The notes under the pieces are model-generated. The model ran no database searches. It was given only the letters and a program-made list of their open reading frames with translations, and was not told the DNA's origin. DNA of 40,916 nucleotides from Clostridiales bacterium UBA4039 (GTDB lineage: Bacteria; Bacillota; Clostridia; Lachnospirales; Vallitaleaceae): positions 1-40,916 of the forward strand of contig DGAD01000028.1 in assembly GCA_002382805.1 (NCBI GenBank), in the 5' to 3' direction. The stretch's first letter is position 1; each line of letters opens with the position of its first letter. Of this stretch, positions 8,010 to 29,900 are shown one piece after another. Both the position numbers and the translations under genes were made by a program.

Positions 8010-8771
8010 TTAATGATTTTCAATAATCTCTACAAGGTCTGCGTGCCAATCATGATACCAAACTTCTTGGGTATATCCGTTGACACTCAACATGCCATAG
8101 GGTTCGTTATCTTTTAAAACATGAAATGTATAATACCCATAAAATTCATGATATGCTTCATCAACACTGAACGTATTGTCATATTCGTCTAAGAAGGTTT
8201 GTGCTGCATTATAAGCTTGTTCATAGCTTACTGTATTATCTTCGATAACTCTTGTATCAAATGTACCACGCATATCCTCTCTATATGTATCCATCCTTCC
8301 ATAATCAAAATTGCGTCTTTGCATATGCCCGCGACCCATGTGTCCTTGTCCCATATATCCACGACTCATATATCCACTGCCCATATGCCCACCTTGACTA
8401 TGCATGCCATATTTTAGATTCCACATCATATTGGGACCATATTCCGGGAAGATTTCTTTTGTGTATGGATTAACTAATAGTTCCATAGCCCCTCGATGTG
8501 TGTCTTGTTCTACAATTGAAAAATAATATTCACCATCTGAAAAAACGAAGATATCACTAATTTCCAATGCCTCTTCATACCTATCAATATAGTCCTTCAC
8601 TTCTTTGGTTAATTCATCAATCGAATAAGGCTCTGTAACATCGGTTTGATTCCATATAGTACTATACGCCGTAGGCGTTTCATCAATGTTTTGACTATAA
8701 ATATATCCGCCAATACCCAATCCAATGAAAACTAGTCCTAAGACAATGATTGTAAGATGCATTTTCTTCAT
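8010..8771 (-). CDS. Membrane-anchored Met/His/Gly-rich protein with two PepSY-like repeats
   Basis: A 253-residue protein of unknown function. One N-terminal membrane segment (about residues 5-27) anchors an outside domain. Two similar modules (about 45-120 and 175-250) each contain a helix followed by strands ending in GAMELLVNPYTKEIFPE or YGMLSVNGYTQEVWYH. This resembles PepSY-type repeats, though I am not certain of the family. Between them, residues of about 120-150 are a low-complexity run of Gly, His, Met and Arg (HMGSGYM, GYMGQGHMGRGHM), a composition known from copper- or silver-binding proteins. It is the last gene of a three-gene set with two SHOCT proteins, starting 5 nt after the second. 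A role in envelope metal binding is inference from composition only. Confidence 0.8.
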   Translation of the reverse strand: MKKMHLTIIVLGLVFIGLGIGGYIYSQNIDETPTAYSTIWNQTDVTEPYSIDELTKEVKDYIDRYEEALEISDIFVFSDGEYYFSIVEQDTHRGAMELLVNPYTKEIFPEYGPNMMWNLKYGMHSQGGHMGSGYMSRGYMGQGHMGRGHMQRRNFDYGRMDTYREDMRGTFDTRVIEDNTVSYEQAYNAAQTFLDEYDNTFSVDEAYHEFYGYYTFHVLKDNEPYGMLSVNGYTQEVWYHDWHADLVEIIENH

Positions 8772-8776
8772 TATAA

Positions 8777-9022
8777 TTACTTCCTTTCAATCACATTTTT
8801 TCTTTTTAGATATTCTTCTTCTGATATATCGCCATTAACATACATGCGTTTTAACGTTTCAATGGCATCTTCATTATTGCTTGCTTTTTTTCGTCCCATT
8901 AAAATTAATGCAACAATGATTAGAACAACACCAATAATAATAAAGTATTGCCAAATTCCAAAATAGCCGCCTCCACCAAACATGCAGCCTCCATTATTAA
9001 ACCAATTATATCCATGCATCAT
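8777..9022 (-). CDS. Small membrane protein with C-terminal SHOCT domain
   Basis: An 81-residue protein. The N-terminus is Gly/Trp/Tyr-rich with one Cys (NWFNNGGCMFGGGGYFGIW), then one membrane span (YFIIIGVVLIIVALILMG), then a typical SHOCT motif of about 30 residues (ETLKRMYVNGDISEEEYLKRK). SHOCT domains are short helical hairpins often attached to membrane proteins and thought to mediate oligomerisation. The start is set at the ATG at 9022, with AAAGGTG six bases upstream; an in-frame GTG at 9031 overlaps that site and is less likely. It lies in the middle of the three-gene set. Confidence 0.8.
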   Translation of the reverse strand: MMHGYNWFNNGGCMFGGGGYFGIWQYFIIIGVVLIIVALILMGRKKASNNEDAIETLKRMYVNGDISEEEYLKRKNVIERK

Positions 9023-9055
9023 ATATATCACCTTTCCTTTTATATTTTCTATATT

Positions 9056-9238
9056 CTACTTAATTGTTTCTTTCATTTGAAGATAGGTTTTCTCATCAAT
9101 TTCGCCTTTTACAAAGCGTTCTTTTAATTGCTCCTGCGCACTTTTATGTTGATTGAATGTGATTTTTCCATTTTCTTGATTGAAAAACAGATAGTAAATT
9201 AATATTGCCAATCCAACCCAAAAGATAATCATCATCAT
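9056..9238 (-). CDS. Tiny membrane protein with SHOCT domain
   Basis: A 60-residue protein: an N-terminal membrane helix (IIFWVGLAILIYYLFF), a short linker, and a C-terminal SHOCT motif (AQEQLKERFVKGEIDEKTYLQMK) similar to that of the next gene. AAGGAGG precedes the ATG at ideal distance, so it is real despite its size. First gene of the operon with the other SHOCT protein and the Met/His-rich protein. Confidence 0.8.
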   Translation of the reverse strand: MMMIIFWVGLAILIYYLFFNQENGKITFNQHKSAQEQLKERFVKGEIDEKTYLQMKETIK

Positions 9239-9277
9239 TTCGCCTCCTTAATCTTTTCTATATATGTAGTATGCAAC

Positions 9278-9299
9278 ACAATTATGACACAATTATGAC
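9278..9299. repeat. Two adjacent perfect 11-bp direct repeats, possible regulator site
   Basis: ACAATTATGAC is present twice in immediate succession (9278-9288 and 9289-9299), 40 bp upstream of the first SHOCT gene. Direct repeats with an 11-bp, one-helical-turn period are the usual binding pattern of OmpR/PhoB-type response regulators. No such regulator is encoded in the window. Confidence 0.6.
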
Positions 9300-9358
9300 T
9301 GTATAAGCGTATTTTCCACTGTAGGCTTTTAGTTCAAAGGCTTCTTCTTATTTTTTGC

Positions 9359-9404
9359 AAAAAAAGAGCCATGCACCTGCAATACGCTTTGCAAGTACAT
9401 AGCT
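9359..9404 (-). terminator. Intrinsic terminator of the alpha/beta hydrolase gene
   Basis: AGCCATGCACCTGCAA (9367-9382) and TTGCAAGTACATAGCT (9389-9404) form a 16-bp stem (with G-U pairs in the RNA) around a 6-nt loop. On the minus strand it is followed by CTTTTTTT. It lies 37 nt after the hydrolase stop. Confidence 0.9.
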
Positions 9405-9441
9405 AAATATATATATGCATATTTCATTTCAGATATAAATA

Positions 9442-10596
9442 TCATTCATTACAAATATGCATTTTCTTCCTTAACCATTCCATCATATATGGTATTTCAA
9501 CTGATTTCATAGTATCTGTACACATATGATCGCCGCCTTCGACTTCTTTGAGCTCAACTGCCCCATTAATAAGTTTTGCAGCCTCACGAATACCTTGAAT
9601 AGGAATTAATGAGTCTTGTGTTCCATGAATTAAAAGTGTTTGTGCTTGTATTTTAGGTAGTATTTTGTTGAAATCAATATGGTTTTTTCTCTGTTCAAAT
9701 TCTTGCTCATCACATCCCCAGTGTTTAAATACCTGTCTTTTTTGAATTACTGGCAAGTGTTTCATGGCTTTTCCAAGATCATAAATCCCCCCACCAAGCA
9801 TCACCATATATTTGAATCTACGGTCTGACCCAGCCGTCATAGCTGACCAAGTCCCTCCTCCACTAAATCCAAATAAACACACTTGATCTTCATTAATCTT
9901 TTCATGCCGCTTACAAAAATCTAAAATTAAATGTCCAAGAATTTCAGCATTGTCTAACGCTTTATAACGATTTCCAGTTAAGCGACTTTCACCCCACCCA
10001 ACTTGGTCAACATTCAAAATCGCCATTCCTTGTTCCAATATAACATCCTCTATAGCACGCAATGTCTCTTTTACGGTATCATTGCCTTGAAACAGAATAA
10101 TCACAGGTACTTTTTTTATTGTATTCTCCGGAAATCTCAAACGCGCAAAGATTTTACCTTTTGTCCATGGGAAAACTATTTTTTCAACTGATGGTTTTGT
10201 GTATTTATCTATTTCAACTGAAATCTTTAAAAAGTCTTTATAGTTGCGGTCAATCTCTTCATCTGTCCGCGCAACCCAATCCGCTAAAAAAAACATCATC
10301 AATGCTTTTTGCTTTTCTTCAATATAATGATCGGGTTCGGATATAAATGCTTCTGCTTTTTTTTCACGTTCCTTTCCTACTCGACGGCAATGTTTATACA
10401 AATCATATCCCATATCATTTGCAGAACTAAAAGCCTCAATCATATCTTGTCTATCTGCTCCCATTAAAATATTGGATTCAAATAGCATATTAAATGTCGG
10501 CATCGATTTCCATTTATTGCTTGCAATGATTTTTCCCATCATCTTATCTTGTATATCATCTGGCATACGAATAAAAGCTTCCTTTGTAAAATTCAT
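9442..10596 (-). CDS. Alpha/beta hydrolase (FrsA/dienelactone-hydrolase-like esterase)
   Basis: A 384-residue serine hydrolase with an N-terminal helical region of about 140 residues and a C-terminal alpha/beta-hydrolase fold. The nucleophile elbow is GFSGGG, the acid is likely the Asp in HGTQDSLIP and the catalytic His that in EGGDHMC. An oxyanion-region motif (PVIILFQGNDTVKE) opens the fold. The helical cap plus core resembles FrsA-like and pseudooxynicotine-hydrolase-type enzymes, but the substrate is unknown. There is no signal peptide, so it is cytoplasmic. AAAGGAT precedes the ATG. The gene has its own TetR-type operator and follows the tetR gene, making it the probable regulated target. 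Confidence 0.85.
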   Translation of the reverse strand: MNFTKEAFIRMPDDIQDKMMGKIIASNKWKSMPTFNMLFESNILMGADRQDMIEAFSSANDMGYDLYKHCRRVGKEREKKAEAFISEPDHYIEEKQKALMMFFLADWVARTDEEIDRNYKDFLKISVEIDKYTKPSVEKIVFPWTKGKIFARLRFPENTIKKVPVIILFQGNDTVKETLRAIEDVILEQGMAILNVDQVGWGESRLTGNRYKALDNAEILGHLILDFCKRHEKINEDQVCLFGFSGGGTWSAMTAGSDRRFKYMVMLGGGIYDLGKAMKHLPVIQKRQVFKHWGCDEQEFEQRKNHIDFNKILPKIQAQTLLIHGTQDSLIPIQGIREAAKLINGAVELKEVEGGDHMCTDTMKSVEIPYMMEWLRKKMHICNE

Positions 10597-10616
10597 AATT
10601 TCATCCTTTCTTTTTA

Positions 10617-10638
10617 ACTAACCGGTTGGTTAATAGTA
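10617..10638 (-). promoter_or_regulatory. TetR-type operator overlapping a -10 ahead of the hydrolase gene
   Basis: ACTAACCGGTTGGTTAAT (10617-10634) contains the dyad TAACC-N4-GGTTA. It overlaps by 2 bp a minus-strand -10-like TACTAT (10633-10638). The same arrangement, with one base changed, precedes the tetR gene. Confidence 0.8.
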
Positions 10639-10659
10639 TCCAAAAAAAATTTCTCCTTT

Positions 10660-11268
10660 CTATAGTTTGTTTTTGTGATATTCTATATGTGTATTGAGAA
10701 ATGCTTGAACAAACATCTCTTTCATTTGTGCTTTCGAAAGCTCATGCTTTTCTCCAAAAACATCCCCAAATATAGCAAATGTGAGTATTGGCATTATTCC
10801 TGTAAAAAATTCGGTAACCATTAATAATTTTTCATCTTTTTCTATGTTCCATCCCTTTTGTTTGTATCGTTCTCGGATTGACTCAATTTCATTTGCCATT
10901 AACATGTCTGACAATGCAATGATAATATTGTCTTCTTCACCTTCTTTAAGTGACTCGATAACAGCAATTTTAATAAGTTTCTTTTTTCTCACAACAAAAT
11001 CCACCATCAATAAAGACGATTTTTCGATATGTCGCATAGACATTTCATCATTTTTCTCATTATATAAATATGTGATCTCTTTTTCAATTAATTTTACAAA
11101 TTCAAAAAAAAGTGTATTTAGCAAGTCTTTTTTACTCTCAAAATAGTAATAGATTAAAGCTTTATTCACTTCAGCTTCTTTAGCGATTTCATTTACACTC
11201 GTTCCATCATATCCCTTTTTAGCAAACATTTCTTCAGCAATATGTAAAATTCGTTCTCTTGCATCCAT
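10660..11268 (-). CDS. TetR-family repressor
   Basis: A 202-residue regulator. The N-terminal helix-turn-helix is clear: RERILHIAEEMFAKKGYDGTSVNEIAKEAEVNKALIYYYFESKKDLL. The remaining helical domain binds an unknown ligand. A TTG at 11271 is in frame, but AGGAG is correctly placed for the ATG at 11268. The promoter carries an operator almost identical to one before the downstream hydrolase gene, so autorepression and repression of the hydrolase are the simplest reading. Confidence 0.9.
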   Translation of the reverse strand: MDARERILHIAEEMFAKKGYDGTSVNEIAKEAEVNKALIYYYFESKKDLLNTLFFEFVKLIEKEITYLYNEKNDEMSMRHIEKSSLLMVDFVVRKKKLIKIAVIESLKEGEEDNIIIALSDMLMANEIESIRERYKQKGWNIEKDEKLLMVTEFFTGIMPILTFAIFGDVFGEKHELSKAQMKEMFVQAFLNTHIEYHKNKL

Positions 11269-11280
11269 CAAAATCTCCTA

Positions 11281-11325
11281 ACTAACCGTTTGGTTAATCT
11301 TATCAAAAATATATTTTTTTGTCAA
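11281..11325 (-). promoter_or_regulatory. tetR promoter with overlapping operator
   Basis: On the minus strand a -35 TTGACA (11320-11325), 17-nt spacer and -10 TAAGAT (11297-11302). The operator ACTAACCGTTTGGTTAAT (11281-11298, dyad TAACC-N4-GGTTA) covers the end of the -10 and the start site, a classic repressor position. Confidence 0.85.
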
Positions 11326-11333
11326 CCTATTTT

Positions 11334-13829
11334 TTATCTAGCTTTTATCAATCCATACTTTTCTTTGATCCGCTCAAGTTTTTCAAGCATTGGTCGGGCA
11401 ATTACAAACAAAAAAAACACTGTTGCTACGGCATGGATCAAATCAAAAGGAATTCCCCGAAGATAGGCAAGTACAAACATCTCCTTTGTCGGATGACTTT
11501 GAAACATCAACACCGCTGCCGGATTCATTATTCCACCATAAATAAAAAATGTACTTATCCCTCCAAAGACGCATAGTTCAATTGTCTTTTTCCTCAATAC
11601 GCCTTTTTGAAATAAAATACCAGCGATGAATCCGATAATACCAAGTGCGAACATTTGCCATGGGGTCCAAGGCCCTTGACCAAAAAACATATTGGATACA
11701 AACGCAATGATGGCACCAACTAAAAAACCTGATTCTGCTCCAAAAGCTACACCAGCAATAATCACAATAGCTACCACCGGCTTAAACTGAGGCACCATAA
11801 AAAAAGCCGCACGCCCCGCTACACCTATAGCACATAGAACTGCAATCACAATGAGTTCCCGGGCAAGGGGTTTTCTGTGTTCAAAAACCAATACAAAAGG
11901 TAACATCGTCTGTAAGATAATAAGCATACTGATAAAATAGTACTTTCGATCTCCTAAGTAATAGATGCCAATATACATCGTAAGAGGAATCGTCAGAAAA
12001 ATTATAATCATGGCCAAGAGTGTTCTGGTTGACAGATAGCGTTGATGTATTGGCACTTGTCCTTCATGCTTCTTATCCTTTTTTCGGGTTTGCACATTTT
12101 GGGGATATAGAGTTTTTACTTTCTTGGGATATACATGGGAAAAATCCACACTTTCCAAAGGAGTAATATCGCCTCCACATGCACTGATGACATCTTCTGG
12201 CGTCATTGCATCTATAATATGTTGACGCGCCATTCGATTTGCTGATGTGGTATAAAAGTTATTGCCTGTAAAGAAATTACGTGTATTATTTTCACTGACA
12301 ACTTTACCATCAAAAAACAAAGCACACCGCTTCGCATACTTGGCACAAAATTCAATATCATGGCTCACCATAATAATCGTCACGCCTTCTTGTAGCAATC
12401 CATGAAGTATACCGGCAAACACACTCTTAAAATGGGCATCTAAACCTTTTGTCGGCTCATCAAGCATCAAGATTTTGGGTTCAAGCAATAAAACCTTAGC
12501 CAATGCCAAGCGTTGCTGTTCTCCTCCGGATAAATCATAAGGATGCTTCGTTAATAGCTTATCTAATTGACATAATTGACTTATGTATTGTACTTGTTCT
12601 TGTCGCGTTTTCTTTTCCTTATCGTGTCCCAATCCATCAACAAGATCTTCGAATACTGTTTTTTGGCTAAAGAGCGTCTGGGGGTTTTGCGGCAACATAC
12701 CTATGCTATTTTCTACAACTTGATTACGCTTATTACCTATGACGTGTCCTGCAACGTTTACCATTCCTCTATATGGCGTATTTTCTCCACAGATGAGCGA
12801 AAGCATTGTTGACTTTCCTGCGCCGTTTCCGCCTAAAATGGCTAACAGTTCCCCTTCATATATTTGCATCGACATTCCTTTAAGAACATCCGTCGCGTTT
12901 TGTTCATAACGAAACCAAACTTCCTCCAGGGTAATTATCGGATTGTACGTCTTTATCTTCTCTTTTTGCGAATGTGTTGGCATCAGGTTAAGCGGTCGAT
13001 GTTGAACAAATGCGTCCAGCCATGTTCTCCCGTCCCGAACAGTTATCGGACACTCTAACTGATTATCCACCCTCGCATATATCTGCATTGGAATTGGCAT
13101 CGCCAAAAACATACTATGTCTTATGTTTTTTAGATATGTCCCTATCTCTTGTGGTGTTCCATCACCTATCAAACGTCCTTCATCTAAAACTAAAACTCTG
13201 TCTGTCAGGGAAAACACCTCTTCTAGGCGATGTTCTGTCATAATAACGGTTACACCTAGTTCACGATTTATCCTTCCAAGCGTTGCTAAAAATTCTGCCG
13301 CTGCAATAGGGTCCAACTGACTTGTCGGCTCATCCAAAATAAGAACTGAAGGCTGCATCGCCATAATTGATGCTAAATTTAAAAGCTGCTTTTGCCCTCC
13401 TGAAAGTTGAGCAACACTTTTATGAAACCAAGACTCAATTCCAAAAAAAGCGGCAATTTCAGCCACACGTAAACGGATGGTCGGAGTATCTATCCCCAAG
13501 CTTTCTAATCCAAAAGCTAATTCATGCCACACTTTATCTGTTACAATTTGGTTGTCCGGCGATTGCATAACAACGCCTATTTTAGAACTTTGAATACGCT
13601 GCTCCCATGCGGACAAGGACTTACCTTCAAATAGAATCTCTCCCTGAACAGTTCCATATGGCGCAAGTACAGTTTTTAATTGTCGAAGTAAGGTTGTCTT
13701 ACCACACCCCGAGGGTCCACAAAGGGTCACAAACTCTCCTTTGTTAATCGAAAAAGACAGTGCATCAAGAACCGCTTTTGTTTGTTTTGGATAAAAAAAC
13801 GTTACCTTTTTAAGCGTATAGCTCTCCAT
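11334..13829 (-). CDS. Single-chain ECF transporter: two ATPase domains fused to an S component
   Basis: An 831-residue fusion. ATPase 1 (about residues 1-245) has Walker A GPSGCGKTT, Q-loop VMQSPDNQ, signature LSGGQKQ and Walker B VLILDEPTSQLDP. ATPase 2 (about 295-515) has GGNGAGKST, LPQNPQTLFS, LSGGEQQR and ILMLDEPTKGLD. From about residue 600 to the end are about six membrane spans, including GVAGRAAFFMVPQFKPVVAIVIIAG, typical of substrate-binding S components of ECF vitamin transporters. The gene overlaps ecfT by 28 nt; the ATG at 13829 has GAGGAG upstream, whereas the more upstream in-frame start at 13877 does not. As last gene of a cobalamin-riboswitch operon, the S domain is predicted to bind a corrinoid. 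AAS fusion in one chain is uncommon; most ECF modules use separate EcfA1, EcfA2 and S proteins. Confidence 0.9.
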   Translation of the reverse strand: MESYTLKKVTFFYPKQTKAVLDALSFSINKGEFVTLCGPSGCGKTTLLRQLKTVLAPYGTVQGEILFEGKSLSAWEQRIQSSKIGVVMQSPDNQIVTDKVWHELAFGLESLGIDTPTIRLRVAEIAAFFGIESWFHKSVAQLSGGQKQLLNLASIMAMQPSVLILDEPTSQLDPIAAAEFLATLGRINRELGVTVIMTEHRLEEVFSLTDRVLVLDEGRLIGDGTPQEIGTYLKNIRHSMFLAMPIPMQIYARVDNQLECPITVRDGRTWLDAFVQHRPLNLMPTHSQKEKIKTYNPIITLEEVWFRYEQNATDVLKGMSMQIYEGELLAILGGNGAGKSTMLSLICGENTPYRGMVNVAGHVIGNKRNQVVENSIGMLPQNPQTLFSQKTVFEDLVDGLGHDKEKKTRQEQVQYISQLCQLDKLLTKHPYDLSGGEQQRLALAKVLLLEPKILMLDEPTKGLDAHFKSVFAGILHGLLQEGVTIIMVSHDIEFCAKYAKRCALFFDGKVVSENNTRNFFTGNNFYTTSANRMARQHIIDAMTPEDVISACGGDITPLESVDFSHVYPKKVKTLYPQNVQTRKKDKKHEGQVPIHQRYLSTRTLLAMIIIFLTIPLTMYIGIYYLGDRKYYFISMLIILQTMLPFVLVFEHRKPLARELIVIAVLCAIGVAGRAAFFMVPQFKPVVAIVIIAGVAFGAESGFLVGAIIAFVSNMFFGQGPWTPWQMFALGIIGFIAGILFQKGVLRKKTIELCVFGGISTFFIYGGIMNPAAVLMFQSHPTKEMFVLAYLRGIPFDLIHAVATVFFLFVIARPMLEKLERIKEKYGLIKAR

Positions 13830-14692
13830 TTTAACTTCTCCTCTATATTTATGCCCACTGGAGCGATACATAAACAAAAATATGTGACATACAGGCTGAT
13901 AGCATGTGCTTCAACTTTCCCCCCTTGTATCGTCGGAAAATACCGCCAATATGTGCCTTCAAAAACAATGCCTATAACCATATAGACTCCACAAACAATT
14001 AAAAAAACAAGTGCATATTGATCACGTCGGTCAAAATGATATATTGAAAAAGCACTACGCCCTGGTAAGCCATAGCCTCTACTTTTCATTGAATCCGCTG
14101 TTTCAATGGCATTTTCCAGCGCCCACGTCACCATAATCGAAAGAATTTTTATGCCTTGTTTTATGCGCTGTATGATATTTCCATAAGACACATCTTTTCC
14201 CAACGCTCTTTGTCCTCGAGTAATCCACTGAAGTTGTGTCAAAAAGCGAGGGACAAAACGTAAAACCATGGATAAGATTAAAGAAAGCGAAGGTATGATA
14301 CGTCCAAATAAATATATAAACTTATCCGAAGTCATGACGACATTATAACAAGAAAACCAGACCATAATTGTCATCAACATAACCGCTGCTGAGATTCCAT
14401 ACACAATAGACTCAAGCGTTAATGGATTCCCATTGGGCAAATAGGTCAAAATAGTCATCCCTTCATGGTTAAACGCAGGATTAATCATTGCTGTAGCAAC
14501 AAGTATCGGCAGCATATACTTCAAACTAAAATTAAGGGTCTTTTTTCCTCGCAAAAAAAATGCATACGTCAGTGCACCAAAAAAAGAGATGCACTGTAAA
14601 ACAGGATGCATAAAAAACATCGAAAAAATTAAGACTTGGGAAAAAAACAAAAAATTAATGATTGGATGATATGTTGAAAAGGTATCTCCCAT
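13802..14692 (-). CDS. ecfT: ECF transporter transmembrane coupling protein EcfT
   Basis: A 296-residue integral membrane protein with several hydrophobic spans and the long cytoplasmic coupling helices typical of EcfT/CbiQ. The signature near residue 210 (ADSMKSRGYG) is the second xRG coupling motif that docks on the ATPases; FVPRFLTQLQ precedes the helical hairpin. Its ATG shares one base with the stop of the DUF4430 gene before it (TAATG), and its 3' end overlaps the ATPase/S fusion gene, so the three should be translationally coupled. With the downstream fusion it forms a complete ECF importer. Confidence 0.92.
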   Translation of the reverse strand: MGDTFSTYHPIINFLFFSQVLIFSMFFMHPVLQCISFFGALTYAFFLRGKKTLNFSLKYMLPILVATAMINPAFNHEGMTILTYLPNGNPLTLESIVYGISAAVMLMTIMVWFSCYNVVMTSDKFIYLFGRIIPSLSLILSMVLRFVPRFLTQLQWITRGQRALGKDVSYGNIIQRIKQGIKILSIMVTWALENAIETADSMKSRGYGLPGRSAFSIYHFDRRDQYALVFLIVCGVYMVIGIVFEGTYWRYFPTIQGGKVEAHAISLYVTYFCLCIAPVGINIEEKLKWRAIRLKR

Positions 14693-15354
14693 TATTGGCC
14701 TCCCGTAGCGACATATCCGCCTACATCACGCCCCAAATCCGTAGTATAGACCCATTCAATAACATCCCCATCTTGAAGCTGATAGCGTGAAGCTCCATAA
14801 TTTGGAAACCATTCATTCACCTTATACATCCAGCCAGATAGTTCACCGACATCAAACTCATATAGATTATTGATTCCTTGAATATATGCGCTGTTATAAA
14901 TAGGTGTATTAACAAATTCCATATGAATATTATTTTTTTTCATTTCTCTTTGCAATAAATTAAAGACACTTTCGCCCTCATAAAAAACGACTTGTGTTGC
15001 AGGAAAAATGATCCCATCTTCCGGCACCAATTCCCATTTTTCTTTATCCAATGCATGCATATTCTCTAAAATCGTCTTACAAGATACCGAAAGTGTCGCT
15101 GTGTATTGCCCATCCCCTAATTGGACGTCCTGAGGTTCTACCGGAAGGGGTTTCCCTTCCGGTACAGGATCTGTAAGATATTCATCTTTTTGACTAATCG
15201 CATCATGCGTATCCTTGTTAGCATGAATTGCAAGTCCATCATCTACGTGGGTGTCCATATTGTTACCAGAGCCCTTCTCCTCCCATATGAATACACTGAG
15301 AAGAAGCACTAAGATTACAAACACCACAGCAAATGTTTTTTTATTCTTCTGCAT
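14692..15354 (-). CDS. Membrane-anchored transcobalamin-like (DUF4430) protein
   Basis: A 220-residue protein: signal anchor (about residues 7-25, no lipobox cysteine), a polar linker rich in Asp, His and Lys, then a DUF4430 domain from about residue 85 to the end. The diagnostic strands are ESVFNLLQREMKKNN, SGWMYKVNEWFPNYGASRY and DGDVIEWVYTTDLGRDVGG. DUF4430 corresponds to the beta domain of vertebrate transcobalamin and intrinsic factor. The gene lies between the barrel protein and ecfT, with its stop overlapping the ecfT start. I infer a docking or hand-over role at the outer membrane face, next to the ECF importer. Confidence 0.88.
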   Translation of the reverse strand: MQKNKKTFAVVFVILVLLLSVFIWEEKGSGNNMDTHVDDGLAIHANKDTHDAISQKDEYLTDPVPEGKPLPVEPQDVQLGDGQYTATLSVSCKTILENMHALDKEKWELVPEDGIIFPATQVVFYEGESVFNLLQREMKKNNIHMEFVNTPIYNSAYIQGINNLYEFDVGELSGWMYKVNEWFPNYGASRYQLQDGDVIEWVYTTDLGRDVGGYVATGGQ

Positions 15355-15379
15355 TTTTAAGCTTTCACCACCTTAGGCT

Positions 15380-17038
15380 TTATAATAGTTGAGATACGTC
15401 TAAAAGGTTATATAGCATCTGTGCAACTTCATAACGCTTAATAGCTTCTCTGGGTCGAATCGTTAAATCTTGTTGTGATAAAAGATCCGATTGATAGCAA
15501 AAGGCTAAGGATGTTCTTGCCCACTGCGACGCCTCCATATAATCCGAAAACTGAGCTAACATATCACGCATCTGAACCTCGGACACGTCGGTGTCATTCC
15601 CTGTCAATTTTGCCGCCCGTGCAATCATAACCGCCGCTTCCTCACGCGTAATCGTTCCATTAGGATTAAACACGGTCCTTGATTGTCCATGAATAATCCC
15701 ATAATTATAGGCTGCTCCTACGGATGTTGCATACCAACTTTTAGCCGGCACATCTCTAAATTGATTTGTACTTTGCTTAGGTAAACCTAGCGCCTGAACA
15801 ATCATAGTCGCAAACTCGGACCGTGTCACATGCATATTCGGTTTAAACTCTGTCTGTGTTTTCCCCTGAATAATTTGGCGAGCCGCAAGGCTATCCATGG
15901 CGAGTTTTGCCCGATGCCCTTTAATATCATCAAAGGTTTTTTTCGGCAAGACAACAGGTCTTAGTTGTACATCCGGATGCTTGTCTTTTTTGCCTACCAC
16001 CGAAGTTGATGGCAAGGATGCTTTAGTTCTTTGCTCAACATCTGTCATCCGATAAAGGCTTTGTTTTTTCTGCTGAGCTCTTTGTATGGCAACCAGTGCA
16101 TAAAATGCTTGTTCTGTTGCCATTTGATTAACTCCCGTCCCATCTTCTGTATGCAAAAAACCTTCCCCTGGTGTGTAAAATTCTAAAAGGTTATCTACAA
16201 CGGTTTTTCCATTTTTCACAAACCGTTTATCTGTCACTGATACGCCTAATTCTGTCAATGCAACAGCAACTTGAGCGGTACTTTCCACATTTTCTTTACC
16301 CCAGCTCGAGTATCCACCTTCATCATTTTGCACATTTGATAAAAAATCTAATGCTTCGTCAATAACTTTTTTAACATCATTTCGCTTTTGGTATTTTGCC
16401 AATGCTTGTAGTGCCATCGCCGTGATATCCGGGTCTGACACCTGTTTTTTAGATGATGCCGTTTCTAATCCTCCAAAAAGAGAAAATCCACCATCCTCAA
16501 GCTGTCTACGCAGTATTTCATCCACATACTTATCCCGTGTCGCTTGAGTCGATGGATTATCACTGTCACTAATTGTATAGGCACCGCTATCCAAAGCGAT
16601 GAGTGCAAAAATAGGCCCATTAATCCCTTGTTGGATTGTCTTATCAAAATCACTCAGTGGATATGTCAGGTCATAGCCACCTACATTCCTAGGATCATAG
16701 CCACTTGCTGTTAACGCCAAAATCAAGCGTGAATATTCTGTGAGTTTGACATGATGTAGAACCCCTTTTTTCTCCTTAACATATGTCTCCACATTATTAT
16801 AGTACGTCAAGTAGTAGTCATTTGGTACATGGTAGTCACTGCGAGCTAGTCCTAGGACAGCCCATTCTCCACCTACAAATCCAACTTGGGGATTACTCAC
16901 CGTCTTATGCATGTAAATTGCAGTATCTTCAATCACTTGATCCAGCTGTTGTTCTGAAACAGATACTACACTTATTCTAGTCACAAAACATAAAATCAAT
17001 ATCCATAGCCACAGGCTTTGTCTTTCTATAACCTTCAT
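15380..17038 (-). CDS. SLH-anchored surface protein with intrinsic-factor-like alpha/alpha barrel
   Basis: A 552-residue secreted protein. A signal peptide (about 1-30, WLWILILCFVTRISVV) is followed by an alpha/alpha-barrel region (about 30-330) built of prenyltransferase/squalene-cyclase-like repeats (GPIFALIALDSGAY, DGGFSLFGG, ALQALAKYQ, NDEGGYSSWG). This is the same fold class as the alpha domain of intrinsic factor. Three SLH modules (about 372-550; RSEFATMIVQALG, TREEAAVMIARAA, RYEVAQMLYNLL) should tether it to wall polymers. It has no DUF4430 domain of its own; that domain is in the next gene. ATGs at 17062 and 17038 are possible; GAGGTG lies 7 nt before the second, which is preferred. 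Confidence 0.85.
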   Translation of the reverse strand: MKVIERQSLWLWILILCFVTRISVVSVSEQQLDQVIEDTAIYMHKTVSNPQVGFVGGEWAVLGLARSDYHVPNDYYLTYYNNVETYVKEKKGVLHHVKLTEYSRLILALTASGYDPRNVGGYDLTYPLSDFDKTIQQGINGPIFALIALDSGAYTISDSDNPSTQATRDKYVDEILRRQLEDGGFSLFGGLETASSKKQVSDPDITAMALQALAKYQKRNDVKKVIDEALDFLSNVQNDEGGYSSWGKENVESTAQVAVALTELGVSVTDKRFVKNGKTVVDNLLEFYTPGEGFLHTEDGTGVNQMATEQAFYALVAIQRAQQKKQSLYRMTDVEQRTKASLPSTSVVGKKDKHPDVQLRPVVLPKKTFDDIKGHRAKLAMDSLAARQIIQGKTQTEFKPNMHVTRSEFATMIVQALGLPKQSTNQFRDVPAKSWYATSVGAAYNYGIIHGQSRTVFNPNGTITREEAAVMIARAAKLTGNDTDVSEVQMRDMLAQFSDYMEASQWARTSLAFCYQSDLLSQQDLTIRPREAIKRYEVAQMLYNLLDVSQLL

Positions 17039-17070
17039 CTTTTTGCACCTCGCTACTTTCATCCTACGGT

Positions 17071-20000
17071 TTATTGCTGTTCATATTTTTCAATAAAGCG
17101 TCTCAGTATTTCAGCGACCTCCGCTCGTGTTGCTTCACCTGCCGGAGAAAGTGTACTTGATGTACGTCCCGTTATTATGCCGGATTGACTTGCCCAACGC
17201 ATAGACTCTAGTGCCCACGGGCTTATCTTTGATTGGTCGATATACATAGTCAAGCTAGCATCTCCCTGCATGTCATATCCTTTTAACGTTCCATATCGAT
17301 AAAGAATGACTGCAATCTGCTCACGAGTTATTTGTTCATTAGGTTTAAAAACTCCATTATCATATCCACTTATGATACCTTTGTCTGCGGCCCATCCTAC
17401 GGATGTTGTAAACCATGTCGCCTCTGGAACATCATGGAATTTAACCGGTGAAGCATCGGGTTCTTTCTCCAACTTGTGTAACACGGTAACTAACATTGCT
17501 CTTGTCATAGGTTGATTAGGGCTAAAGGTCTCTGATGAAGTACCTACAAACAAGCCTTTTTGTGTTGCCGTTTGAACCGCTTTATAGAACCAATCCTCTG
17601 GCTTGACATCCTTAAATCGATGAACAAATGTAGCATCTTTCAATTCAGTGCCAACAACATAGGAAGATAAATAAGAACTATCAAAACTTGCCATCTCTGT
17701 CTTTGAGTTATAGTCTGATTCGATACGTTTCAATTGATTGTTTTCATCTAGACTCCATACATTGACCTCTTCTTTTGTTTCACCTGCTTTTAGTGTATAT
17801 GGCAAAGCAATCGTTACTTTTTTCTTGCCCAAATCACGTATAGATTCTCCTGCGCTTTCAATGACAATATCATAGACAACATGATGACCGATGGCTTCAC
17901 GTTGTTCCTCTGTAAGCGTTAAAGCATCCGTCTCTTGTAACTGCACGACTATCGTCTCACCCTTTGCTTGTTTTGCAAGAAGTGCTAACATCGCATTGGA
18001 CATATCTAAATGGGCAATGGAAGACTCTATATTTAGGTCTAGCCCTTTTTGTTTTGCCACAGATTCTATTGACTTTTTCGGAAGTTCTATGTTAAAGCCC
18101 TTCATTTTTTTATTGGTATCTATTTTTATAACAATATCTGATAATTTTCCTTTTTCAACTGCCTTCAAAGCTTTGTCAAAGTGGCGTTTACTTATAGATA
18201 CCTTCTCTGAGTCTCCATCCACTTCAATAACATAGGCTTTTTTGTTCGCTTTTAAATCCCCGCTCCACTTACTGTTATCTTGTCCTAAATCTTCACCTAA
18301 ATCTGTCGTGTATCTCCAGCGCAAGACATCACCTTCTTTAAGGTCATATTGACTTGCACCATAGTCCGGATAACGTCCATTTACACTATACATCCATCCA
18401 CTAAGCGGTCCATGATCAAACTCTCCATCTCCATCTATAGATTGTACATAGACACTTTCGAATTTATTATACCATTTATAGTCATAGCGAATATTTCGAG
18501 CATCTAAGGCTCGCTTTAACACGGACCATGCTGTATCTCCATCTTGAAGTTCAACATAGGTTGAAGAAATAACATAACCTTCGCCTATTGTTCGCTTGTC
18601 TACCGAAAGTTTAACTTTCTTTTCAGGTTCAATAACGACATCATCATCTACATCTCTTAGCAAATATACGACATAGTCCGTAAAATGTTTTGTCTTGACG
18701 ATTAAATCGTCTCCATTATCAAAAGCATAGGCATCTTTGCCACTGGCAAGTCCCTCTGCATCATTTGCATATTTTGATAGTAATTCTATATTCTCTCCAT
18801 TGATTGCAGCAACCAAGTGCCCTGCCTTTTTGGAAAATTGCATATGGACATAACCGTTGAATTCAATCTTATGGTTGCCTCCCATTGTAAATGCTTGGGG
18901 GATTTCATGGATTTTTTTATCCTTTGCAATGTGAGGTTCTAACACCGACAAATAGTCTGTCGGTTCTTGATATGTTATTAACTCAATCGATGCGCTATCT
19001 TGTGGCGTAACCTGTATGCCTTGAGGAAATACCACCTGGGTATTTTCCTTAATCACTTCAATACGTGGCATTGCATCCATTAAAGGCAACTCCAAAATAA
19101 CTTTTGAAGCAATATCTTGTGCAACATTAATACGTATCGTATGTTCAGGTGATGCTACCGGAACGATCTGATCTATCCCTTCAAGTAATTGAACATCTAC
19201 TGTAATGGTATTTTGTTCATCTGGCGCTGGAAGTTTAATGACGTTGATCGGTCTTTTTTTAGCCTGGTTAAACTGCTCATTTGCCCCATCTAATTGGGCA
19301 AGTGCATCATTAATTTCTTGTTGCAAGGCATCCGCTTTATCTGCAGTGATTTGAGCTGTATCAAGTGCTGATGTCAATACACTGTGTTCTTCTTGGGTTG
19401 CCCAGTTTTTTCCTAAGTCAACGTCTTTTCCGTCAACACTTACCGGTGTCTGTTCAAGATTGGATTTGACTTGTGTTATTAATGCATTTAATTTAGCTTT
19501 ATCTACTTGAGTGTATCCTAGGTCAATCGTGCCTAACTTATACCATGTGGATTGACCTGAGACACTATCTGCTAATGCTACTGAAGCTTGTTTTGTTGAC
19601 ATGAAGACCGCACCCGGGTTATCCTTTTGCCAATCAAATGCTCCTTCTGAATTTTGATAACTTAGTAATGCATCTATCGGTGTTTTTCCATTGTAATTCC
19701 ATGCTCCATCTGTTGAGGTTACATCTTCTCCAATGGCTATAAGTCCTTGGATTGCACAAGCGATACTATTGGAGTTTTCCGCATCCCACATACCGCTGCC
19801 GCCAAATCCACCGCTTTCTTGTTGCATACTTTTTAAGTATTGTTTTGCTTTTACAATACTTGTATCAACTGTTGGTCCATTTGCTTTTGACAAGGCAATC
19901 AACGACCATCCTGTATAGTCTATCTGACTAAATGCACCAAAACTACCATCTGGATTTTGTTGAAGAATTAAGTGGTCAACCGCTTTTTCCTTATTGGATG

Positions 20001-21474
20001 CATTCCATGTTCCGACATCAACGCCTAAGGTTTCACCAACATCTAAGGCAACAATAGCCCATATATGCTTACCTAAGCTCCCAAAACTCCCACTGTCTTG
20101 GTCTTGCTGTGCAGACAATTCTAAAAAGAGATTTCGCTCCGTTTCAAAAGCCTTTGCCGGATTTTTTCCAACGCTTAATAAACTATAGATATAGTATATA
20201 TGATCATTGGCGTTGGTCTGCGGATCAAATCCGGGGTCTAGTGTTTTCCAGCTGGCATCTTCCCATGGCGAAGTCGATAAGTCTTCCCCCGCTCCCCATA
20301 ACCCTACAAAGGCCTCCCAAGATCCTGAAGGTGAGGTCGGCTGATTATCTTTGTAATAGTCCGTCAGCTTATTTAACGCAATTTTGGGGGTTACCGGTAT
20401 ATCCGTTGATTTTAATCCGTATTTTTTTGCCGCATTGAAAATATCTGTTGCCTGTGCAAGCACTTGAACTGCATGATCAATATCTGTCTGTGTTACATCT
20501 AAACTGTCTCTTACGGCTTTGGCATCTTTAACTACATCAAGATATGTCTCTATATCAGATTGGCGCACCCACTGATTTGCTGTATCTATGTCTTTTCCAT
20601 CGATACTTATTGCGGCGCCTGTAATGTTGGCATGCGCATCATAAATTGCTGTGTCTAATACCGCTGTATCTACATCCGCTGTATCTTGCGGCGATACTAT
20701 TGTAATCTGATAAGTCTCAGCTAAAACATCTGAAGCACCCGACCACGAATTCATCGTTGGCCATGCAGGATCACCACAGATAACGGTTATCACCGTACCA
20801 TTAGATACCGGAATGCTTTGTGTGCGTTTATAATGTGTTCCCTCTACAAACGTTTTTATTAAAAAGTTTTTGTTACTTGCTGTAGGTTCCACATCAACCG
20901 ACGCAATACCTTGGGACAATTCTAAGGTATAGCTGTTAATCTCTTGATTAAATGAGGGGCTTAATGTCCCTTGACTAAAGCGAATGGACTGAATGGTTTT
21001 ATCATTATTATCCCATGAACCACCAACATCTTTTCCATAACCGTTTTTTGTATATACCCATCGAACAATATCTCCTTGCTCAACTTCGATGTCTCCTGCG
21101 CCTACATGTGTGAACCAGTCGTTTAGTGTTACCATCCAACCGCTTTCACTTCCTCCATCAAATGCATTGACACCGTGAATTCCAGAAATATAGTTCGATT
21201 CCATACCAACAACCTCGTAGCTTGTTCCCTCAAAGGCTTTGGCTGTTGCATCGATAACGGTGGAGTTTGCCGGTACAGTTACCCATTTTTGTACGAGTTG
21301 ACCGTCCCATGAAGCGCCTTGCCCCTGACTAAAGGTTGTGTTTTCAACCTCTACAAGAACACTTACTCCAGATGCTGCATCTGTAGTCCATATTGTATAT
21401 GGACTTATAACTGTAACTAGCATTATCAGCGTTAGGAAAAACGCCATATATTTTTTCATCTTCCTACATATCAT
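17071..21474 (-). CDS. Giant SLH surface protein: DUF4430, cadherin-like, alpha/alpha barrel, DUF4430
   Basis: A 1,467-residue secreted protein, the first gene after the cobalamin riboswitch. Approximate order: signal peptide (1-35); DUF4430 domain 1 (38-150; SGWMVTLNDWFTHVGAG, GDIVRWVYT); cadherin-like beta-sandwich (160-265; SFNQEINSYTLEL); a helical spacer; alpha/alpha barrel (360-675; HIWAIVALDVGE, QNPDGSFG, ESGGFGGSGMWDAEN); another helical spacer; a beta-rich region (750-950); DUF4430 domain 2 (960-1080; SGWMYSVNGRYPDYGASQY); an unassigned region; three SLH modules (1285-1467). One chain thus carries both halves of a transcobalamin-type binder, barrel plus beta domain, with a wall anchor. 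GGAGG precedes the ATG at 21474; a more upstream ATG at 21489 overlaps that site. Corrinoid binding is inferred from domain and riboswitch, not shown. Confidence 0.88.
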   Translation of the reverse strand: MICRKMKKYMAFFLTLIMLVTVISPYTIWTTDAASGVSVLVEVENTTFSQGQGASWDGQLVQKWVTVPANSTVIDATAKAFEGTSYEVVGMESNYISGIHGVNAFDGGSESGWMVTLNDWFTHVGAGDIEVEQGDIVRWVYTKNGYGKDVGGSWDNNDKTIQSIRFSQGTLSPSFNQEINSYTLELSQGIASVDVEPTASNKNFLIKTFVEGTHYKRTQSIPVSNGTVITVICGDPAWPTMNSWSGASDVLAETYQITIVSPQDTADVDTAVLDTAIYDAHANITGAAISIDGKDIDTANQWVRQSDIETYLDVVKDAKAVRDSLDVTQTDIDHAVQVLAQATDIFNAAKKYGLKSTDIPVTPKIALNKLTDYYKDNQPTSPSGSWEAFVGLWGAGEDLSTSPWEDASWKTLDPGFDPQTNANDHIYYIYSLLSVGKNPAKAFETERNLFLELSAQQDQDSGSFGSLGKHIWAIVALDVGETLGVDVGTWNASNKEKAVDHLILQQNPDGSFGAFSQIDYTGWSLIALSKANGPTVDTSIVKAKQYLKSMQQESGGFGGSGMWDAENSNSIACAIQGLIAIGEDVTSTDGAWNYNGKTPIDALLSYQNSEGAFDWQKDNPGAVFMSTKQASVALADSVSGQSTWYKLGTIDLGYTQVDKAKLNALITQVKSNLEQTPVSVDGKDVDLGKNWATQEEHSVLTSALDTAQITADKADALQQEINDALAQLDGANEQFNQAKKRPINVIKLPAPDEQNTITVDVQLLEGIDQIVPVASPEHTIRINVAQDIASKVILELPLMDAMPRIEVIKENTQVVFPQGIQVTPQDSASIELITYQEPTDYLSVLEPHIAKDKKIHEIPQAFTMGGNHKIEFNGYVHMQFSKKAGHLVAAINGENIELLSKYANDAEGLASGKDAYAFDNGDDLIVKTKHFTDYVVYLLRDVDDDVVIEPEKKVKLSVDKRTIGEGYVISSTYVELQDGDTAWSVLKRALDARNIRYDYKWYNKFESVYVQSIDGDGEFDHGPLSGWMYSVNGRYPDYGASQYDLKEGDVLRWRYTTDLGEDLGQDNSKWSGDLKANKKAYVIEVDGDSEKVSISKRHFDKALKAVEKGKLSDIVIKIDTNKKMKGFNIELPKKSIESVAKQKGLDLNIESSIAHLDMSNAMLALLAKQAKGETIVVQLQETDALTLTEEQREAIGHHVVYDIVIESAGESIRDLGKKKVTIALPYTLKAGETKEEVNVWSLDENNQLKRIESDYNSKTEMASFDSSYLSSYVVGTELKDATFVHRFKDVKPEDWFYKAVQTATQKGLFVGTSSETFSPNQPMTRAMLVTVLHKLEKEPDASPVKFHDVPEATWFTTSVGWAADKGIISGYDNGVFKPNEQITREQIAVILYRYGTLKGYDMQGDASLTMYIDQSKISPWALESMRWASQSGIITGRTSSTLSPAGEATRAEVAEILRRFIEKYEQQ

Positions 21475-21536
21475 TATAACATCCTCCATAATTTTTTATA
21501 AAACTTCAAAACTATAACTATCTTGTCTATTCATAA

Positions 21537-21575
21537 TAAAAAAACACCTTTTCTAGTATGGATAGAAAAGATGTC
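21537..21575 (-). terminator. Terminator of the cobalamin riboswitch expression platform
   Basis: ACACCTTTTCTA (21544-21555) pairs fully (one G-U in RNA) with TAGAAAAGATGT (21563-21574) around a 7-nt loop, followed on the minus strand by T residues. It lies between the aptamer and the first gene. A second small hairpin, AATAACTA (21584-21591) with TAGTTATT (21603-21610), precedes it. Confidence 0.85.
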
Positions 21576-21666
21576 TCACAAATAATAACTACTTTTTCAT
21601 CATAGTTATTCCTATGTCAAAAGTAATACAACGTCCTCCTTCCCATTCCCGTGAGAAATATAGAGC

Positions 21667-21825
21667 ATCTATATGGCAGGTCTCCTGGCTTTGCTTCGTC
21701 ACACAACTCTCTCCTTCCCATTATATATAACAGTGGATATAAGAGTTTGCTCTGCATTACAGTGGCGGGACCGCGTTGGCATTGCACCAAACTTCCCTCT
21801 TAGCTATAAATAGAACCATACAGAT
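21667..21825 (-). promoter_or_regulatory. Cobalamin (adenosylcobalamin-class) riboswitch aptamer
   Basis: Read on the minus strand, the B12 box AGCCAGGAGACCTGCC occupies 21675-21690, and the conserved 5' core (GAGGGAA, GGTGCAATGCC, GCGGTCCCGCCACTGTAA) lies at about 21754-21799. ATCTGTATGG (21816-21825) pairs with CCATATAGAT (21667-21676) to close the element. With the downstream terminator it should switch off the five-gene operon when cobalamin is plentiful. The 21490-21912 gap holds only this riboswitch, its terminator and its promoter. Confidence 0.95.
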
Positions 21826-21853
21826 ATTCTTATTAAATTTTCATATACTAGAC

Positions 21854-21882
21854 ATCATAGTTTAGAAGTCAAAGGATGTCAA
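21854..21882 (-). promoter_or_regulatory. Promoter of the cobalamin-capture operon
   Basis: On the minus strand a consensus -35 TTGACA (21877-21882), 17-nt spacer and -10 TATGAT (21854-21859). Transcription would start near 21847, giving a leader of about 370 nt that contains the whole riboswitch. It begins only about 30 nt after the stop of the anti-sigma gene. Confidence 0.85.
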
Positions 21883-26992: not shown

Positions 26993-29900
26993 TTATTTCT
27001 TTATATAACCGCTACGCATAAGTTCTCCTCCTTGATCGCCTCCTTTTGGACCAAGCTCTATCAGATAGTCGCAGTTTTTTATCATCATAAGATTATGCTC
27101 AATAATGATAAGCGTCGCTCCTCTTGATTTTAGTCGTTTTAAAACCGCTATGATTTTTTGAGTATCTTCATCACTTAACCCCGTTGTCGGCTCATCCAAG
27201 ATATATAGTGTTTGAGATCCGCGTTTTTTAACTAGTTCCTTTGCAAGTTTTATTCGTTGCGCTTCTCCACCTGAGAGCGTCGTTGCACTTTGTCCCAGCT
27301 TTAGATATCCTAAACCTATTTGATCGAGTGTTAAAAGATACTGAAAAATCCTATCGTCATGTTCATAAATTTTCAACAACTCTTGAATCTCAACGTCAAG
27401 GATATCAGCTATGGACATACCTTTTTCTTTTATATTTAGGATGTTGTCCGCGTATCGCTTTCCATGACATTGGCTACAGGGTATATATATATCTTCCATG
27501 TAATGCATATTCACAGCCACTTCGCCAAGCCCTTTACACTTCGGGCATTGTCCTTTTGTAGAGTTAAAACTAAAGCTTGCCTTTGTCAAACCTTGAGCTC
27601 TTGCTTGTTGCGTACCGGCATAGCGTTCACGTAGCAAGTCAAAGACACCGGTATATGTACCTGGTGTGGAGCGCGGATTGCTTCCTATAGGACTTTGGTT
27701 GACATAGCATACCTGCTCATATGCTTCAAGTCCAACAACCGCCTCGACTTCACCTGACGCTTCGACGGTTTTACCCATATGTTTTAATATAGCCGGATAT
27801 AATGTTTTTGCAATCAGGCTACTCTTACCTGAGCCACTAACACCGATAACTGCTGTTAGTTGTCCTATAGGAATCGTCACATCAATATTTTTCAAATTAT
27901 AGGTTGCAACTTTTTTCATCTGAATAGCTGCTTCTTGCTTCGTATACAATTTAATGTCTCCTATTGCTTTTGCCTCAGCAGACATTGTTTTAGGATCTCT
28001 CAAATGTTCTAAAGGAACATTCGAGACAATCTCTCCACCATAAACCCCTGCTCTAGGTCCCATTACAAGATGAACATCTGCAATCTCCAAGAAGCTTTTC
28101 TTATGTTCAACAATAAGTATTGTGTTATCTTGTCTTTTTAGCTCCAACAGTGTCTTCATTAAAAATTGATAGTCTTTTGGATGTAACCCCTTAGAAGGTT
28201 CATCCATAATATAGGTGATATTACTAAGCCCTGAACCCAATTGACTAGCCAACTTAAGCCTTTGAGCCTCACCGGTAGAGAGGCTTGGTATGCTTCTGTC
28301 TATGGAAAGGTAACCAATACCTACATCCAATATACGCTTTAAACGCCGATTTAGTTGAACAAAAAGCTTCTTCGTTTGCTCCTGTTGGTTATGTGGTAAA
28401 TGCATATACATATGATGGCACCATGTGTGGAGTTCATCACTACTTAACTTAATCACCGTCACATAGCGATCTCCCATAATATTCACTAATCGTCCTTCCG
28501 GTTGTAACCGCTCTCCTTGGCATTCACTACATATTTGTTTCGTCATATATCGCTGCACTTGTGCATTGGTTTTTGATGAACTTGTCGAGTGCATCAAGCG
28601 CTCAATTAAAGGTATAGCTCCCTCTACAGGTCGAACAATCGTTCCACTACGTCCTTTAGCATTTTTATAATCCAAACGAACGTTTCGACCATTCGATCCG
28701 TGAAGCATTTCTTGTTTAAATCGCTCCGGCAATTGATTATATGCAAGTTCTAAATCAACCTCTAGATCCGCTGCCAATGCCAGCACTTCGCCTCGAATCC
28801 AATTAGCATTTGGATTTTCTCTATGTTTTCTTAAATTACCATATAATGACGACGCCCCATCAAGCAAAGATTTTTCTGGCGCTTCAACGATTTTAGATGG
28901 ATCACCCCCCATCTGCATGCCTAAACCTTTGCAAACAGGGCACATATAATCAGGATGGTTCGAACTAAATAGTTGCGGTGTTCGATCAAAGAAAACCTCA
29001 CCGCAGGATGAGCAAACATTACCTGCATCAATTTCATGGTGACATATCGGACATATACGCTGCCCGATAATTGAAAAAATCAACTTGAGAATATCACCAA
29101 TTTTTGTAACACTTCCAACACTTGACCTCGGATTTGCTCCTAAAGCTCTTTGATCGATTGCAATAGCTGGCTGTAAACCAGTGATATTATCCACGTAGCG
29201 ATCCGATAGAGCTACATCCCCCATCGGATTTGATAAAATAAGATCCATAAATTGTCTTTGACTTTCTGCATATAAAATATCAAATGCCAAATTGGATTTT
29301 CCACTGCCGCTGACCCCTGAAATCAGCGTAATTTTATTTTTGGGTATTTTAACGGATAGATTTTTCAAATTATGAATATGTGCATTATGAATCTGAATAT
29401 TTTTGGAATCCTCTTCATGTTCATCCAAAGGAATCTGTTCAAGATCCATGGATAGTTTCTTGAATTTTAAATCCTTTGTTTGCATTGGTCTTGCATCAAC
29501 CTCTTTAGGTTGTGCAAAGGTTTTTTTCTTTGTCCAATGCGAAACCCAGCTAGGTACACCGGCACTCTTAATACAATCCATTGAAGGTTGATAAAACATC
29601 ACTTGTAATATTTTACTTCCTATAAAGCCATCAAATCCTATAATCTCAATGAAGCCATCATCATGCCAAACATTATTCACACGAACAAGCGTCGACCCTA
29701 TCGGATTTGGGCGGACTGGTGAACGTGTAGCAAATACGCCTGTACGGGGAGCATGGTTATACGGTGGCATGCATGTCCTGATTTTTCGAAAATTATCTCC
29801 ATCAAAGCGATCAAACCACCATAAAACACGTAAGTAGTCTCCTTGTTGAATGTGGTGGATATTTGTATCCGTCTTATTTAATTGAATCCCCATACGCTTG

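Follow-up and report, generated by a model that had tools for sequence, protein, structure and literature searches.

A riboswitch-led operon with transcobalamin-like domains and an ECF importer, a probable corrinoid capture system in Clostridiales bacterium UBA4039

How does a corrinoid cross the thick Gram-positive wall to reach an energy-coupling factor (ECF) importer in the membrane? In the literature searched, which covered few subscription papers, we found no direct work on this passage, and the route seems little studied. The question is raised by a locus of Clostridiales bacterium UBA4039 (assembly GCA_002382805.1, contig DGAD01000028.1), which lies in a window of 40,916 nucleotides, the whole stretch of DNA that was analysed. 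The locus is one compact transcription unit on the minus strand, running from 21882 to 11334 (Table 1), and its five genes (P0001 to P0005) encode two barrel proteins with SLH repeats, a protein with a hydrophobic anchor and a DUF4430 domain, an EcfT protein and an EcfA-EcfA-S fusion. A sequence-only reading had listed a promoter-like site, a riboswitch and five packed genes with these domains, and all of these parts were found on the minus strand where it had placed them. Judging from the sequence, the operon is very likely a set for the capture and import of corrinoids (vitamin B12-type compounds).

The leader of the operon carries a cobalamin riboswitch aptamer that matches RF00174 over its full length and scores far above the gathering score of 31.5; nothing unusual for the family was seen. 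Between the aptamer and the first gene we found a terminator-like hairpin (21577-21541), an element absent from the earlier reading. In total, the leader region holds two terminator-like sites versus 0.3 expected from shuffles, and the hairpin is likely to be the expression platform, acting by transcription termination. The promoter-like site is weak evidence by itself, as five such sites were observed in the 561-base leader region versus 2.5 +/- 1.8 in shuffles. Successive genes are spaced by 8, 25 and -1 bases, and the final pair overlaps by 28 bases if P0005 starts at the ATG at 13829. In the whole source genome there are three RF00174 matches and three DUF4430 matches, every one of the latter inside this operon.

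The three DUF4430 domains of the operon score 74, 68.3 and 50.2 bits with PF14478, which has a cut-off of 23.8. Human transcobalamin beta (5np4) matched the AlphaFold2 model of P0001 with a template-modelling (TM) score of 0.74 (by target length), at 2.5 Å over 105 columns of 106 residues and with 19% identity. The range of this match within the model is not given; the second DUF4430 domain of P0001 is the sole such domain in the modelled stretch. In addition, a profile was built from 24 DUF4430 sequences; its alignment with the beta domain of transcobalamin-2 is colinear but weak (0.45). The proposed relation between DUF4430 and the transcobalamin beta domain is therefore supported at the level of the predicted fold. 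The human beta domain alone has been crystallised with cyanocobalamin and with cobinamide, and separately made alpha and beta domains needed cobalamin for their assembly in vitro (PMC5599065).

SLH repeats, a feature of S-layer wall proteins, are present in both P0001 and P0002. Together with the hydrophobic anchor of P0003 they provide the anchoring domains on wall and membrane that had been expected. The toroid matches of P0001 are weak and below the Pfam cut-offs, and both barrels are backed by AlphaFold2 models with a mean pLDDT (predicted local distance difference test) of 90. When the five proteins were scanned with Pfam, no NEAT family was found, and the NF033190 match falls within the SLH part.

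The remaining two genes point to a dedicated ECF unit, as had been proposed. P0004 alone gave no Pfam match, but a profile of 20 members of its family, 13 of which match CbiQ at E 0.1 or better, found solved EcfT chains at 1.2e-15. The two ATPase stretches of P0005 match TIGR04520 (358.9 bits, cut-off 315) and also CbiO models. A profile of 24 S components, that of the window and 23 from related loci, was compared with solved structures: CbrT (6fnp chain A) was found at 1.4e-14, with 4hzu_S at 0.13 as the runner-up. 6FNP is the ECF-CbrT complex, which transports cobalamin and cobinamide (PMC5997447). The S component also matches the vitamin-type ECF families PF12822 and PF07155. It could have grouped with the transporters of another vitamin; its nearest solved relative is CbrT, though riboflavin and folate models match weakly. 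The riboswitch and the CbrT-like S component both agree with a corrinoid as the substrate class.

The alignment with CbrT starts only at position 64 of the S profile and is preceded by an extra hydrophobic pair (P0005 residues 620-638 and 647-665). The loop region between them is as well conserved as the S core: on average the commonest residue accounts for 0.86 of the sequences in the loop region and for 0.78 in the core. Because the ATPases on its N-terminal side are cytoplasmic, the DRKYYFIS loop would lie on the outer side of the membrane.

Furthermore, we searched other genomes for the same gene order. One protein search gave 7651 homologues of P0003; an alignment of P0003 with 23 sequences contained one near-identical protein and 22 with 61-72% identity. 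A scan of species genomes gave at least 559 confirmed P0003 relatives, of which the best 80 loci were analysed, so that the counts below describe close relatives. Profile hidden Markov models were run over all 80 loci, 72 of which have at least 1.9 kb of upstream and 54 at least 5 kb of downstream DNA. A barrel gene lies at most 700 bases upstream of the DUF4430 gene on the same strand in 69 of the 72, with the weakest barrel at 314 bits; the exceptions are L032 (no barrel), L057 (barrel 0.9 kb upstream) and L097. The upstream barrel protein lacks a DUF4430 domain in 63 of these 69 loci and carries one in 6, and SLH is present in 61 of the 63 DUF4430-free proteins. EcfT, EcfA and S genes are all found downstream in 44/54 loci; in L101, where the contig is cut, S is missing. 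The Rfam search was performed on 42 of the 80 loci (the 40 over 18.5 kb, L047 and L089), and in 30 of them RF00174 was found upstream on the same strand, versus about 0.3 expected. The expectation was calculated from the density of 186 RF00174 matches in the 137 Mb of 30 of these genomes, a minimum value since scores were computed for only some of the candidates.

The genera with such loci include Paenibacillus, Vallitalea, Pelotomaculum, Flavonifractor, Sporobacter, Lutispora and Candidatus Formimonas. The survey for the same gene order behind RF00174 hits that the sequence-only reading had called for thus shows that it recurs in related loci, and because order and riboswitch recur in many genera, an arrangement by chance is excluded. 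In 18 aligned relatives the barrel of P0002 is conserved at 54-66% identity; the architecture of the large P0001-type protein varies much between loci. In several loci two or three cobalamin riboswitches on one strand precede cassette or surface genes (L048:6045-6575, where the spacing is about 130 bases, L094:1357-2969, L029:410-1177 and L035:888-7009).

When 149 genomes drawn evenly from the phylum were searched at 1e-6, 23 of them matched the DUF4430 profile and 31 the barrel profile. Ten of the 149 have a strong P0003-like match (at least 85 bits, frames of 226-387 aa). Among these ten, a barrel match lies within about 1.5 kb upstream in eight and just downstream in G127, and G113 has none; several barrel frames in these genomes are long (960-1600 aa) and could hold DUF4430 too. 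One P0003-like DUF4430 frame (G166:C6:20634-20924) contains a single in-frame TAG and is either a decayed gene or one with a recoded stop.

The same gene order was also found with another type of wall anchor. In one plasmid record of Latilactobacillus curvatus (CP117684.1, L113, 3853-9495) the first gene encodes an LPXTG protein, which matches the P0002-family profile at 3.6e-32 over the toroid part. Its barrel shares 27% identity with P0002, and Pfam detects the LPXTG anchor and no SLH in this protein. The neighbouring genes match the DUF4430, EcfT and S profiles. The barrel retains a wall anchor of other chemistry, and the DUF4430 protein retains its hydrophobic N-terminus. Inspected by eye, the sequence of the S protein has two hydrophobic stretches ahead of the core.

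Table 1. Features of the operon in the window (all on the minus strand)
Feature	Position	Strand	Evidence or remark
Promoter-like site TTGACA-17-TATGAT	21854..21882	-	11/12 consensus bases
Cobalamin riboswitch aptamer RF00174, full length 1-189	21658..21835	-	110.1 bits, E 6.8e-27
Terminator-like hairpin, then T run	21541..21577	-	15 pairs; consensus match only
P0001, 1472 aa: N-terminal hydrophobic segment, DUF4430, cadherin-like (below cut-off), alpha/alpha barrel, beta sandwich, DUF4430, three SLH repeats	17071..21489	-	
DUF4430 domain 1, N-terminal in P0001	21046..21264	-	50.2 bits
Alpha/alpha barrel of P0001, about residues 363-660	19510..20403	-	AlphaFold2 model and fold matches
DUF4430 domain 2 in P0001	18307..18540	-	74 bits; transcobalamin beta 5np4 match of modelled stretch
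P0002, 560 aa: N-terminal hydrophobic segment, barrel, SLH repeats; without DUF4430	15380..17062	-	
Alpha/alpha barrel of P0002	16034..16957	-	toroid match and model
P0003, 220 aa: one N-terminal hydrophobic anchor (no cysteine there), conserved stalk, one DUF4430	14692..15354	-	
DUF4430 domain of P0003	14743..14976	-	
P0004, 296 aa: EcfT transmembrane coupling protein	13802..14692	-	profile of 20 members
P0005: EcfA-EcfA-S fusion, two ABC ATPase stretches and ECF S component	11334..13877	-	likely start ATG 13829
CbrT-like S component stretch, hairpin included (used for alignment)	11337..12080	-	
Extra transmembrane hairpin ahead of S-component core	11880..12029	-	DRKYYFIS loop invariant or nearly so

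We then looked at the corrinoid physiology of the source genome. CbiD, the sole synthesis marker that we looked for, was not found, and B12-binding domains were matched in six places, five of them over the cut-off. A second riboswitch (G000:C48:7851-8040, L105) precedes BtuFCD-like, PduO and CobB genes at 8226-13054, which suggests a second corrinoid route. The best NCBIfam matches of these genes include BtuF, BtuC, an ABC ATPase, a PduO-type adenosyltransferase and cobyrinic acid a,c-diamide synthase, only the last of them over the cut-off. Because CbiD is absent, B12-binding domains are present and this second set stands behind its own riboswitch, the organism probably scavenges corrinoid, and does so via two routes. 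Any DUF4430 domain was found in 11 of 31 relatives of the source genome; CbiD was detected in 2 of these 11 and in 10 of the 20 without DUF4430. The third riboswitch (G000:C48:31673-31859, L106:11673-11859, 115.5 bits) directly precedes a gene for a glycyl radical enzyme of the PFL2/glycerol dehydratase family (L106, 11872-14358) and its activase gene (14359-15162). This enzyme is possibly a B12-independent dehydratase switched by B12.

Several results weigh against the operon being a corrinoid capture and import set. The BtuFCD-like importer under its own riboswitch leaves the second route without explanation. Of 30 genomes with the cassette, 16 have CbiD and probably make corrinoid themselves, so scavenging would not always be the sole source. 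No same-strand upstream riboswitch was seen in the available DNA of 12 of the 42 loci, nor in the 12.3 kb L. curvatus stretch. In nine of the 54 loci no ECF gene lies downstream of the barrel/DUF4430 pair in the available DNA (L033, L046, L047, L050, L051, L054, L055, L066 and L077), and their importer may be encoded elsewhere or shared. Among the fold matches of the barrels, terpene cyclases resemble them at least as well as transcobalamin does. Finally, in a comparison confined to the 24 S components of the profile, the general folate-type S model of NCBIfam matches all 24 and the riboflavin-type model 23; the S component of the window stays under both cut-offs (31 of 60 bits and 34.1 of 99 bits).

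From the parts, families, folds, gene order and conservation computed here, we infer secretion and anchoring of the proteins, a corrinoid as ligand, transfer from wall to membrane and docking on the extra hairpin of the S component. As the anatomy of the leader suggests, scarce corrinoid would let the riboswitch pass transcription through the terminator. The two alpha/alpha-barrel proteins, one of them also with two transcobalamin-beta-like DUF4430 domains, would then be secreted and fixed to the wall through their SLH domains. P0003, with its single span, would display DUF4430 on a stalk just outside the membrane. A barrel would catch the corrinoid at the wall and either hand it over to the DUF4430 domain on the membrane or clamp it jointly with that domain. 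From there the ligand would reach the CbrT-like S component, with the EcfA-EcfA/EcfT motor driving import.

How barrel and DUF4430 might cooperate can be pictured by analogy with human transcobalamin, a proposal that we hold only tentatively and at somewhat less than even chances. The wall barrel, anchored by SLH or LPXTG, would be the alpha half and the membrane DUF4430 domain the beta half, joined by the corrinoid as the human alpha and beta domains are in vitro. The complex would dock on the S-component hairpin and thereby act as an outside, ligand-triggered receptor for the ECF importer. Three observations speak for such a split transcobalamin: the pairing of barrel and DUF4430 (69/72) is more constant than their pairing with ECF genes (44/54), the barrel protein lacks its own DUF4430 in 63/69 loci, and the two halves stay separate when the anchor is swapped. 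The cyclase-like barrels, the fused forms in some genomes and the need for the halves to meet across the wall speak against it.

An alternative is that P0001 alone acts as an intrinsic-factor-like clamp, its own barrel and its own DUF4430 closing over one corrinoid. Both domains are indeed in a single chain, and cooperating fused toroid and SLBB domains have been proposed by Burroughs et al. 2007 (PMC1796856). However, the closed inter-domain pocket that the sequence-only reading had expected was not seen in the model from the barrel to the C-terminal DUF4430 (residues 363-1079): helices, a beta-rich stretch and long linkers separate the two, and in two-domain alignments with transcobalamin, intrinsic factor and haptocorrin the root-mean-square deviation was 29.8-33.5 Å over 629-746 columns. 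Because the predicted TM score is only 0.56, which leaves the arrangement open, and the linkers are long, the pocket-free model does not count as a refutation. The architecture of the large protein also differs much from locus to locus, and we regard the clamp as unlikely. Less probable still is that the cassette imports corrinoid precursors or lower-ligand bases (cobinamide, dimethylbenzimidazole, in a CblT-like role) and not complete cobamides. Precursor uptake is under B12 riboswitch control too, and a different substrate would explain two routes in a genome that already has a BtuFCD-like set. Moreover, cobinamide is handled by both transcobalamin beta and ECF-CbrT (PMC5599065, PMC5997447). 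Against this stands the S component, which is nearest to CbrT among the solved structures.

The CbiQ and CbiO matches of EcfT and the ATPases could suggest that the unit imports cobalt, as CbiMNQO systems do, and that the surface proteins have nothing to do with it; B12 riboswitches precede some nickel/cobalt-type importers (PMC2667541). However, the S component matches CbrT and the two vitamin-type ECF families. Motors related to CbiO and CbiQ serve ECF importers generally, and we give this explanation hardly any credence. It is also very improbable that the SLH proteins serve in S-layer structure or in adhesion and ride in the operon with no role in capture. Structural wall proteins often contain SLH and cadherin-like parts, and the alpha/alpha toroid is a common fold. 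But the barrel gene stands directly before the DUF4430 gene in nearly all loci, also in those without adjoining ECF genes, and it keeps this position when LPXTG replaces SLH. Its sequence is conserved as well, both in the close relatives of P0002 and, more distantly, in the lactobacillus.

The corrinoid capture set that we prefer resembles known systems in part. In the haem relays Isd and Shr-Shp-Hts of Gram-positive bacteria (PMC2266757), a tetrapyrrole is reportedly handed from the wall to a membrane protein and on to an importer. The outline is alike, with wall proteins, a membrane-anchored protein and an ATP-driven importer. In contrast to the relays, the five proteins lack NEAT, folds and importer class differ, and the ligand would be a corrinoid instead of haem. 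BtuG of Bacteroides likewise captures B12 at the surface ahead of an importer; it is described as a beta-propeller working with the outer-membrane protein BtuB, and its fold and envelope are unrelated to those of the operon proteins (PMC6977713). Human transcobalamin, intrinsic factor and haptocorrin combine, as here, an alpha/alpha barrel with a beta-grasp beta domain. The human carriers are single chains, barrel then beta, that close on one cobalamin, whereas here the halves lie on separate proteins or far apart in a long chain. ECF-CbrT of Lactobacillus delbrueckii (PMC5997447, 6FNP) has a CbrT-like S component, EcfT and two EcfA in common with the operon. Its module is described as common to several S components, and cbrS adjoins cbrT (PMC5997447); the S component of the operon has a module of its own and shares a chain with the ATPases. 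CbrT (182 aa) lacks the extra N-terminal hairpin of the operon S component. A proteomics paper on L. rhamnosus names an 'Additional lipoprotein component of putative cobalamin ECF transporter' (PMC9963975). Some database annotation thus already links cobalamin ECF import with an external component; the paper's passages do not identify it as a DUF4430 protein.

The sequence-only reading had suggested a distinct uptake design in this operon, but its outline had already been predicted. Burroughs, Balaji, Iyer and Aravind (2007, PMC1796856) described operons of Gram-positive bacteria in which secreted or cell-surface transcobalamin-like SLBB and toroid proteins are encoded together with CbiO and CbiQ, and they put forward a role in scavenging B12. 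Their SLBB operons likewise show toroid fusion on either side, a second paralogous SLBB protein, the CbiO ATPase and the CbiQ permease. The claim made there that such genomes usually lack B12 synthesis fits the source genome and is not general, given CbiD in 16/30. The main text of that paper nowhere uses the words riboswitch, SLH, S-layer or lipoprotein. Beyond the 2007 operons, the locus has a riboswitch with a terminator, related loci have SLH or LPXTG anchors, barrel-only proteins stand beside DUF4430-only proteins, and the S component is of the CbrT type with an extra hairpin. New here are the nearness of S to CbrT, the fold match to transcobalamin beta, the wide spread, the LPXTG variant and the conservation of the extra hairpin; the core idea is not new.

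Elsewhere in the window we found two unusual domain combinations. A UvrA-like protein of 1096 aa (26993-30283) has a TrmO_N match (3.7e-17) at residues 139-236, which we take to be about the usual site of the UvrB-binding domain of UvrA. At 36623-38509 there is an apparent fusion, 628 aa long, of a GDT1-type cation/proton antiporter and a metallo-beta-lactamase fold domain.

The cassette is widespread and often B12-switched, and its soluble domains should be easy to make, which renders the 2007 prediction directly testable. In the view of Burroughs et al. (PMC1796856), animals acquired their carrier from such bacteria. If the split transcobalamin is true, the operon would represent a bacterial form of this carrier, and its ECF importer would be one that is served by a receptor outside the cell.

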